The translations under genes were made by a program, and so were the position numbers. This document shows, in pieces, positions 16,605 through 18,530 of a stretch of DNA of 64,000 nucleotides. Position 1 is the stretch's first letter; every line of letters begins with the position of its first letter. The notes beneath the pieces were generated by a model. The model worked only from the letters and a program-made list of their open reading frames with translations, was not told where the DNA came from and made no database searches. Where the stretch lies: NCBI RefSeq assembly GCF_019977755.1, contig NZ_AP025144.1:2790001-2854000 (forward strand), read 5' to 3'. This stretch comes from Vibrio penaeicida. GTDB lineage: Bacteria; Pseudomonadota; Gammaproteobacteria; Enterobacterales; Vibrionaceae.

Positions 16605-17492
16605 TTAACGATTTGATTTCACCGTTATATTTCCATTAATCGTATTTTTGTTGGTCAGCTTCGCCAATAACCCACCCACTTTACTACGTATTTCTCGTCT
16701 ATCTACGATCATATCTAACGCGCCATGTTCCAATAAAAACTCGCTTCGCTGAAATTCATCTGGAAGTTTTTCGCGAACCGTCTGCTCAATGACTCGTCGC
16801 CCAGCAAATCCAATTCGGGCCTTAGGTTCGCCGATATTTATGTCACCAAGCATCGCTAGACTTGCCGATACGCCACCAAAGGTTTGGTCTGTTAGTACCG
16901 AAATATAAGGCAATCCCGCATCAGATAAACGCTTTAGGGCAGCACTCGTTTTGGACATTTGCATTAGGGACATTAAAGATTCCTGCATGCGGGCACCTCC
17001 ACAAGCAGAAAAACACACCAGCCCACATTCTGCATCAATAGCGGCCTCCACTGATCTAACGAAACGAGCACCCACCACCGATCCCATGGAGCCGACCATA
17101 AAAGAATATTCAAAAGCGCAAGCCACCACTGGTAACCCAAAAAGTTCACCTTTCATAGCAACTAAGGCATCTTTTTCACCCGTGCTTTTTTGAGCAAGCG
17201 TCAATCGCTCTTGATAGCGCTTTAAATCTTTAAAACCGAGAAGATCTTTTGGCTGGAGTTCACTCGCAATTTCACATCGATCTCCTTGGTCCAAAAAGAC
17301 ATCTAACCTACGTCGTGCCGCCATTCTCATGTGATAATCGCATTTAGGGCAGACCTCTAGGTTTTCCGCTACCGCAGCGCGATAGAGCGTGTGTTCACAC
17401 GAAGGGCATTGGGTCCAGACCCCATCCGGAATTGTGGATTTTCGTGTTCTGATTATGTTCTTTGTATCTAACAGCTTTTCTAACCAACTCAT
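16605..17492 (-). CDS. Acetyl-CoA carboxylase carboxyltransferase beta subunit paralogue (AccD-like)
   Basis: A 295-residue AccD homologue with the N-terminal zinc ribbon (CPSC at 29-32, CPKC at 48-51) and the crotonase-fold carboxyltransferase (SMGSVVGARFVR, CGGARMQESLMSLMQM, GGVSASLAMLGD). With AccA it moves carboxyl from biotin to acetyl-CoA, making malonyl-CoA. Aligned by eye to E. coli AccD, it has Phe205 for Met203, Gln203 for Pro201 and Val133 for Gly131, and a shorter C-terminal tail. Met203 is the residue changed to Leu in the andrimid-resistant AdmT. It stands alone beside a divergent LysR gene, not in the usual truA-accD-folC setting, suggesting an extra, possibly inhibitor-tolerant copy. 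Confidence 0.9.
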   Translation of the reverse strand: MSWLEKLLDTKNIIRTRKSTIPDGVWTQCPSCEHTLYRAAVAENLEVCPKCDYHMRMAARRRLDVFLDQGDRCEIASELQPKDLLGFKDLKRYQERLTLAQKSTGEKDALVAMKGELFGLPVVACAFEYSFMVGSMGSVVGARFVRSVEAAIDAECGLVCFSACGGARMQESLMSLMQMSKTSAALKRLSDAGLPYISVLTDQTFGGVSASLAMLGDINIGEPKARIGFAGRRVIEQTVREKLPDEFQRSEFLLEHGALDMIVDRREIRSKVGGLLAKLTNKNTINGNITVKSNR

Positions 17493-17519
17493 TGGGCAAC
17501 CTTATTCAAATACCATACC

Positions 17520-17542
17520 TATCTGTGAGCACTCTCCAGATA
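17520..17542 (+). promoter_or_regulatory. Candidate LysR operator between accD paralogue and LysR gene
   Basis: TATCTG-N11-CAGATA (17520-17542) is a textbook T-N11-A dyad for a LysR-type regulator. It lies 28 bases upstream of the AccD start and about 90 before the LysR start. A wider inverted repeat, AATACCAT (17509-17516) and ATGGTATT (17551-17558), surrounds it. Confidence 0.5.
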
Positions 17543-17633
17543 AACCTTTCATGGTATTGCATTGTATAAGCCTACTTTTGGTAATAAAGTGGCGTAAATA
17601 GGATTCATAATCCAACAATATGGGACAGTTAGA

Positions 17634-18530
17634 ATGCTAGAGAAGATTGATCAGGTATGGCTCAAGAGCTTTCATTGTGTCTATGAAAACAACAGTTTTA
17701 AAAGAGCTTCTGAATTTCTCGACTTACCGACCTCCAACGTGAGTCGCCATGTTGCATTATTGGAAGAGAAGCTAAGCACACGACTTTTCGATAGAACGAC
17801 GCGCAAGATAGCCCCAACGGAAGCCGGCGAGCAGCTTTACACTCGCACACAACCACTGCTCAATAAACTCAATGATGCGCTTGAAGACATCACTCAACAC
17901 ACGAGTGAAGCCATGGGACAACTTAGGATTCTGATGCCCGACTCTCCTACATTAGCTGAGGCTGTTGTGTCTTTCTGTTCTCAGTACCCTTCCATTTCCT
18001 TGTGTTGCGATACCAGCATTCACCCGAAAGAGGATTTGCTGGATGGGTTTGACGTTGTTTTGAGTTTCCACCGCGGGAAACTTGCCGACAGCAATTGGAT
18101 TGCAAAAGAGATTAAACGCTGGCCAAGTGTGGTGGTGGCAGCACCGAAACTCATTCAAGCTCACCCTTCCCCTTTTCGGATTACCGATTTAAATCATGTA
18201 CCTTGTATTAGCAGTTTCTCCGTTTTGAATGGCACACCTTGGATCTTCAAAAATAAAAAAGGCGAACTTATCACACAGAAAGTGAACTCTTCATTTAGGG
18301 TAAACAGTGGGCATCTTGCTAAATCAGGGGCATTGGCTGGTCTTGGGTTTGCCATACTTCCAACGGAATTTTGCTGTGATGAAATCAATTCAGGTCTTCT
18401 CAATACCATTGAACTTGAATATGAACCTGAAGATTTGGTTCTGTATGCGTTTTATGCCTCTAGAAAACATTTGGCAAAGAAAACCGCCATGTTTATTGAA
18501 CATCTATTGCGGCAATCAAAAGCGGGTTAA
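17634..18530 (+). CDS. LysR-family regulator divergent from the accD paralogue
   Basis: A 298-residue LysR protein: helix-turn-helix NNSFKRASEFLDLPTSNVSRHVALLEEKLSTRLFDRTTRKIAPTEAGE in two segments (about residues 17-65), then the effector domain. Divergent arrangement and the T-N11-A dyad in the 141-base gap make the AccD paralogue its likely target. The effector could be an acyl-CoA-related metabolite or an inhibitor of carboxyltransferase, but this is speculation. Confidence 0.9.
   Translation: MLEKIDQVWLKSFHCVYENNSFKRASEFLDLPTSNVSRHVALLEEKLSTRLFDRTTRKIAPTEAGEQLYTRTQPLLNKLNDALEDITQHTSEAMGQLRILMPDSPTLAEAVVSFCSQYPSISLCCDTSIHPKEDLLDGFDVVLSFHRGKLADSNWIAKEIKRWPSVVVAAPKLIQAHPSPFRITDLNHVPCISSFSVLNGTPWIFKNKKGELITQKVNSSFRVNSGHLAKSGALAGLGFAILPTEFCCDEINSGLLNTIELEYEPEDLVLYAFYASRKHLAKKTAMFIEHLLRQSKAG

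Follow-up and report, generated by a model that had tools for sequence, protein, structure and literature searches.

In a 64,000-nucleotide stretch of the Vibrio penaeicida genome (NCBI RefSeq assembly GCF_019977755.1, contig NZ_AP025144.1, positions 2,790,001 to 2,854,000; hereafter the window), we identified a second gene for the beta subunit of acetyl-CoA carboxyltransferase, here termed accD2, that is divergent from a gene for a LysR-type regulator. The acetyl-CoA carboxylase of bacteria is potently inhibited by andrimid-type compounds, and we consider it likely that the two genes constitute a portable, LysR-controlled module that supplies a resistant target against an antibiotic of this type. 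Our reading of AccD2 as a spare, regulator-coupled and probably inhibitor-tolerant subunit draws on the presence of a second copy, on substituted residues that recur in two andrimid-type biosynthetic clusters, and on the conservation of the divergent LysR gene together with an intergenic operator. The coordinates of all features are collected in Table 1.

The window AccD2 matches the TIGR00515 model with 414.1 bits, above the curated equivalog cut-off of 317.45, and comprises a zinc ribbon (PF17848, Zn_ribbon_ACC) and a Carboxyl_trans domain. The four zinc-ribbon cysteines (C29, C32, C48 and C51) do not vary across 11 AccD2 proteins, and carboxyltransferase activity of AccD2 with AccA is predicted. 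An earlier reading of this DNA, made from its letters alone (the sequence-only reading), had placed a divergent LysR gene across a 141-base gap, and the coordinates of the open reading frame (17634–18530, forward strand) confirmed this arrangement. Two Vibrio penaeicida records (L054 and L075) contain copies of AccD2 and LysR with 96–98% identity to those of the window. The same reading had proposed that accD2 is a spare copy, which the rest of the genome bears out: a housekeeping accD flanked by truA and folC lies at a distance of approximately 55 kb and shares 75% identity with the window copy, so that the window gene is not the sole accD. The accD gene of E. coli K-12 occupies the same truA–folC region, where dedA is also found. 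The gene for the partner subunit, accA, is present in a single copy in the window genome, and its one reported stop is the terminal one.

Alignment to E. coli AccD further confirmed three replacements that had been read by eye, namely Val for Gly131, Gln for Pro201 and Phe for Met203 (residues 133, 203 and 205 of the window protein; E. coli numbering is used below), and also revealed Cys for Ser162, Ser for Ala170 and Arg for Leu224. These positions were compared across 54 AccD2 sequences, each free of stops and with at least 270 aligned residues, and 30 housekeeping AccD sequences, the latter representing 30 of the 37 genus genomes sampled (the other seven had no fetched locus). At position 203, Met is absent from AccD2 (Phe in 35, Leu in 13 and Tyr in 6), while the housekeeping copies carry Met in 28 cases, Leu in one, Tyr in one and Phe in none; on this sample, the expectation that Phe203 is not common in ordinary vibrio AccD therefore holds. 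Positions 131 and 201 likewise differ between the two groups (Table 1), and position 162 is less strict, with Cys in 40, Ser in 13 and Val in one of the AccD2 sequences and Ser in all 30 housekeeping sequences. In a set of 221 database proteins picked for resembling AccD2, Met203 is absent, Pro201 occurs in three and Gly131 in one. Two congeners that possess a single accD (L028 in genome G004 and L031 in genome G014) have Leu or Tyr as residue 203 of that housekeeping AccD.

Phylogenetic analysis placed AccD2 on one side of a branch in a 91-row AccD tree, with a value of 98 in the Shimodaira–Hasegawa-like approximate likelihood ratio test (SH-aLRT); the tree was obtained by a quick search and contains some long branches, the longest being that of the divergent member L042. 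Members of the clade occur in Vibrio, Photobacterium, Pseudoalteromonas and Agarivorans, and the annotated records examined call the gene simply accD. Two copies borne by marine andrimid-type clusters, from strain SWAT-3 and Vibrio coralliilyticus OCN008, fall inside AccD2 and group with L036, L164 and L165 (SH-aLRT 97). When the 58 stand-alone AccD2 rows were constrained to form a group that excluded the cluster copies, the tree became 34.9 log-likelihood units worse (approximately unbiased test, p-AU 0.04), a borderline result for a group picked after seeing the tree. Pairwise distances of AccD2 and LysR agree closely (r 0.88, n = 48). For the eight genomes in which all three genes were available, r was 0.88 for AccD2 and LysR, 0.49 for AccD2 and the housekeeping copy (p 0.058), and 0.69 for LysR and the housekeeping copy (p 0.023). 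These values are consistent with the two genes having been inherited together and with a degree of common species history.

The same pair is found within two andrimid-type clusters. SWAT-3, a published andrimid producer (PMC3559943), possesses three accD genes, one of which adjoins the same divergent LysR gene together with an aromatic amino-acid lyase of the AdmH type, a 4'-phosphopantetheinyl transferase, a major facilitator superfamily (MFS) transporter and adenylation domains. Another of the three forms an accD2-lysR pair without such cluster neighbours in the 18.6 kb read. In V. coralliilyticus OCN008, a 245-kb plasmid carries a cluster annotated with the same accD-LysR arrangement, and its phenylalanine aminomutase is 99.6% identical to that of SWAT-3. 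The cluster AccD proteins of both strains have Ala131, Gln201 and Phe203. Genes for TniB-like and Mu-type transposase proteins were observed near the SWAT-3 cluster (L121, 7198–10882). Matilla et al. 2016 had already described a LysR gene lying upstream of admT in both the SWAT-3 and the S2052 cluster and had suggested a role for it in cluster expression (PMC5216899), and in V. coralliilyticus S2052 grown on chitin an accD-like gene was upregulated, as was, slightly, the LysR gene (PMC5209532). Overexpressed AdmT rendered E. coli andrimid-resistant, and Pantoea AdmT and E. coli AccA assembled into an active complex, with a half-maximal inhibitory concentration of 500 nM for A2T2 as compared with 12 nM (PMC6269866).

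The window gene itself was not assigned as a cluster admT, since no frame of the size expected for a nonribosomal peptide synthetase (NRPS) or polyketide synthase occurs among the open reading frames listed for 12000–23000 of the window, the three neighbours scanned there encode MsrAB, a dehydrogenase and an aldehyde dehydrogenase, and the best match to the SWAT-3 marker AdmH anywhere in the genome reaches only 34%. The sequence-only reading had raised the question of an andrimid-type cluster in this genome; searched for by the AdmH marker alone, none was found, and the genome was accordingly rejected as that of an andrimid producer on this single-marker test. Across the 18 other genomes examined, SWAT-3 excluded, the best-scoring AdmH matches were 31–35%. 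A true match was thus limited to one of 20 genomes carrying AccD2 or a remnant of it, namely SWAT-3. With a threshold of E 1e-120, a sample of 394 genomes of the order gave none; SWAT-3 was also unmatched there and presumably lies outside that sample. The neighbours of the pair in V. neptunius S2394 were likewise rejected as an andrimid cluster, AdmH reaching only 35% there; the six neighbours scanned gave an asparaginase, a weak AMP-binding match, DUF3419, an MFS protein and two without a match, and PMC3039463 reports no andrimid from this strain. The window genome was also seen to contain 34 matches to the NRPS condensation domain, distributed over several large open frames (G000 C1 and C2), none of the matches being in the window.

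The pair also occurs outside the clusters. Among the window genome and 36 congeners, a full AccD2-type second copy was found in ten, the window's included, together with one more divergent second copy (G033) and broken copies in two genomes (G011 and G019). A LysR profile search of 196 genus genomes, including that of the window, with a threshold of 520 bits, identified 58 places in 57 genomes; AccD2 is divergent from LysR at 55 of these, one of the adjacent AccD2 frames running off its contig, and at the other three LysR faces an MFS gene (G151 and G011) or a contig end (G115). The divergent pair is present in 54 of the 196 genomes (28%). Eight further places scored 359–446 bits, five of them facing MFS genes and one a monooxygenase; also at this level are a truncated LysR beside AccD2 (G199) and a pair in which both genes are degraded (G097). 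In an exact DNA pattern search for TDQTxGGVSAS over genome contigs of 84,980 species, which copies with Pro201 would escape, 45 stretches were recovered, 42 with AccD2-type coding DNA (at least 60% identity) and three without it (L064, L073 and L092). Eight of the 42 reach the edge of the available DNA, and of the remaining 34, divergent LysR sequence accompanies 32 (in L055 as a remnant only), the other two being AccD2 fragments without LysR (L081 and L097). An acidobacterial AccD that is 47% identical (L073, 4202–5095) was observed to fit the TDQTxGG pattern as well.

Comparison of 12 gene contexts revealed that another neighbour is common, at 60% identity, to 17 of the 66 context pairs, mainly in one species group, and this pattern indicates that the accD2-lysR pair is fixed in place in some clades and located in differing places elsewhere. 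The window's own neighbours do not recur above 36% identity in any of the 12 contexts. One pair resides on a Pseudoalteromonas donghaensis plasmid typed as mobilizable. Phage carriage of the window copy was considered and rejected, since among the best 10 of 18 matching phage records the highest identity is 61.6%, less than that of the housekeeping copy (75%). In records labelled as plasmids of Salmonella, Klebsiella, Escherichia and Serratia (H5–H18), an accD approximately 67–68% identical to the window copy was observed; some of these records are whole-chromosome-sized.

When 60 intergenic regions were aligned (L188 and L042, whose ends are incomplete, being excluded), a conserved block emerged between the two genes, a candidate operator and promoter. 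Its mean pairwise identity is 0.745, compared with 0.448 in 41 other well-filled intergenic columns (56 rows, four near-copies being left out) and with 0.336 at the fourfold sites of accD2 (48 loci). In the window, a matrix of this operator scores 88.1 bits at the block, the sole match above 5 bits, the window row being itself among the matrix sources. The conserved columns include a predicted -10 element of accD2 and an imperfect dyad, TAATCC...GGGACA, as a candidate LysR recognition site (Table 1). By eye, some 60–65 bases separate the latter from the presumed accD2 start downstream of it, which places it close to -65, where LysR recognition sites are usually found (PMC11602165). The sequence-only reading had singled out a different dyad, TATCTG-N11-CAGATA, which is present exactly at 17520–17542 but lies outside the conserved block, within an insertion limited to three V. 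penaeicida-type loci (L150, L152 and L155; L182 has other letters there). It was therefore rejected as a conserved operator, and a species-specific role may remain for it.

Sister regulators of this LysR face other effectors. Seven of them (L175, L176, L185, L186, L187, L191 and L192), 48–75% identical to the window protein, are paired with an MFS transporter; the partner is a flavin adenine dinucleotide (FAD) monooxygenase at L190, an alpha/beta hydrolase at L193 and seemingly the same hydrolase at L194. Of the seven MFS-paired lysR genes, four (L175, L176, L185 and L186) have an upstream match to the operator matrix at 32–58 bits, with controls in which 300 Markov-shuffled copies stayed below -30 bits at their maximum and the matrix-source rows gave 27–99 bits. 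Scores below zero were obtained at L187, L191, L192, L190, L193 and L194 and at the divergent accD2 member L042, those of L191 and L193 being no better than the shuffles. Although L175 and L176 were nested among the AccD2-linked regulators in a quick tree, a tree in which these regulators were held as one clade was equally good (p-AU 0.57), so that a single change of partner suffices and a swap inside the clade need not be invoked. The FAD monooxygenase facing L190 was rejected as a drug-inactivating enzyme, its best match being a urate hydroxylase and that to tetracycline destructase far weaker, both under the cut-off. A broader proposal, which we advance tentatively and rate a little short of an even chance, is that this LysR subfamily of marine Gammaproteobacteria is a plug-in sensor of carboxylase-inhibiting antibiotics, with alternative effectors (a transporter or a resistant subunit) placed on a common operator, and that stand-alone AccD2 came first, the marine andrimid clusters recruiting theirs. 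Recruitment from such a stand-alone pool would imply that resistance is both much commoner and older than production in vibrios.

In the mechanism that we propose for the window pair, LysR would sense that an andrimid-type antibiotic is attacking the carboxyltransferase, either directly or via metabolites such as acetyl-CoA or malonyl-CoA, and would activate accD2 from the operator at 17561–17625. In the complex formed with the single AccA, AccD2 would take the place of its housekeeping counterpart, and malonyl-CoA synthesis would go on because of the changed residues at the inhibitor-contact loop (A/V131, Q201 and F/L/Y203). The sequences themselves show the second copy, its clade and residue signature, the conserved divergent pair with its operator, and the recurrence of the pair in andrimid-type clusters; tolerance, induction, subunit exchange and the ligand are what we infer from them.

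Several observations weigh against a resistance module of this kind. Seven of the 55 adjacent AccD2 frames (L134, L160, L170, L171, L177, L181 and L184) are broken by a frame break or a stop, for which decay and sequencing error are alike possible, and the divergent member L042 combines Pro201 and Leu203 with a weak operator match only. A scan for consensus sigma-70 promoters found none; a weak accD2 promoter would suit an activator, which is not demonstrated by the scan itself. The cluster-borne AccD proteins in the tree were the two marine copies alone, and no entry named Pantoea AdmT appears among 120 listed matches to L042, many of which are nameless. The S2052 subunit is given as M203L (PMC5209532), as opposed to Phe203 in the SWAT-3 and OCN008 copies. 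Moreover, both V. harveyi and V. vulnificus were reported to be inhibited by andrimid, a result that those authors stated without the data, and V. anguillarum 90-11-287 by extracts of the andrimid producer (PMC3039463). AccD2 occurs in sequenced V. harveyi, V. vulnificus and V. anguillarum, from which the tested strains may differ; the inhibition may reflect tested strains that lack AccD2, or a tolerance that is partial. V. cholerae N16961 is andrimid-sensitive, the edge of inhibition being estimated near 63 nM (PMC3559943), and AccD2-type proteins named V. cholerae occur in database matches. A separate observation is that the minimum inhibitory concentration of andrimid reported for Photobacterium galatheae is high (80 uM; PMC7793655).

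An explanation that dispenses with antibiotics, and which we regard as unlikely, is that AccD2 is a conditional isozyme that adjusts carboxylase flux under a LysR responsive to acetyl-CoA or fatty-acid demand. The Shewanella LysR protein AccR indeed activates the divergent accS and responds to acetyl-CoA (PMC11602165), and the window LysR could likewise detect these metabolites. However, the changes specific to the AccD2 clade include an inhibitor-contact residue (position 203, non-Met in 54 of 54 sequences), the module is patchy among genomes, the sister regulators face transporters, and the same pair is part of two andrimid-type clusters. This last point also argues against a tolerance directed at a different carboxyltransferase inhibitor of marine bacteria, with andrimid as one cognate only, which we consider quite improbable; other inhibitors of AccA/AccD, the thailandamides and butuanimides, are known (PMC13151354), residue 203 varies among Phe, Leu and Tyr, and the inhibition of AccD2-bearing species described above (PMC3039463) would agree with a different compound. 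Least probable of all is that the pair is the relic of an andrimid cluster lost in this lineage, for although AccD2 shares its clade and residue type with the AccD of two marine clusters, the borderline topology test, the confinement of true AdmH matches to SWAT-3 and the rarity of the cluster among Vibrio genome projects (PMC11350110) speak against it.

A resistant-target module would in part resemble systems that are already known, namely self-protection by AdmT as a resistant target and a neighbouring LysR gene in two clusters. AdmT, encoded in andrimid clusters of Pantoea, Serratia and Vibrio, is an AccD homologue in which Met203 is replaced, as in the window AccD2; the window copy likewise exists beside a housekeeping AccD, and the marine cluster copies in the AccD2 clade share its Gln201 and Phe203. 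In contrast to AdmT, the window AccD2 stands alone with its own LysR in a genome without an AdmH match above 34%, has Val131 where the marine cluster copies have Ala131, and has Phe203 where Leu is named for andrimid resistance (PMC5209532). The LysR beside admT in SWAT-3 and OCN008 belongs to the same subfamily and has the same divergent arrangement as that of the window, whereas the window pair differs from the SWAT-3 and S2052 arrangements in that it stands by itself and has a conserved operator. AccR-AccS of Shewanella similarly pairs a LysR with a divergent acetyl-CoA carboxylase gene and an operator typical of LysR-type regulators (PMC11602165), but AccS is a multi-domain carboxylase and AccD2 a single 295-residue beta subunit; the likeness is one of arrangement and not of a sequence comparison between AccR and LysR. 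The MFS-paired sister modules of the same genus share the LysR subfamily and, in four of seven cases, the operator, their effector being a transporter and not AccD2. In the open-licence literature, surveyed by titles and the beginnings of abstracts, we found no stand-alone andrimid-resistance AccD in vibrios, nor, within that scope, any sign of the regulated stand-alone pair, its spread, its plasmid carriage, the conserved operator or the transporter-paired sister regulators.

Table 1. Features of the accD2-lysR region (positions are those of the window; residue positions in brackets follow E. coli AccD)
Feature	Position	Strand	Remarks
accD2, second acetyl-CoA carboxyltransferase beta subunit	16605..17492	-	295 aa; TIGR00515, Zn_ribbon_ACC and Carboxyl_trans; AccD2 clade
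Divergent LysR-type regulator, partner of accD2	17634..18530	+	298 aa; HTH_1 and LysR_substrate domains
Phe205 codon (Met203)	16878..16880	-	non-Met in 54 of 54 AccD2
Gln203 codon (Pro201)	16884..16886	-	Gln 52 and Pro 2 of 54 AccD2; Pro in 30 of 30 housekeeping
Val133 codon (Gly131)	17094..17096	-	Ala 51 and Val 3 of 54 AccD2; Gly in 30 of 30 housekeeping
Conserved operator/promoter block, 65 bases	17561..17625		candidate; four MFS-paired sister lysR genes have an upstream match as well
Predicted accD2 -10 element TATACAAT	17561..17568	-	by eye; commonest base 78-100% per column, 56 rows
Imperfect dyad TAATCC...GGGACA, candidate LysR recognition site	17608..17627		conserved columns; by eye; putative function
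Dyad TATCTG-N11-CAGATA	17520..17542		in insertion common to three V. penaeicida-type loci

A candidate resistant subunit under a dedicated regulator is present in 28% of the congeners sampled and can be plasmid-borne, and the andrimid cluster itself is recorded in 2 of 56,817 Vibrio genome projects (PMC11350110). If the tolerance is true, the accD2-lysR pair would make possible a direct test of resistance spreading without production in marine communities.

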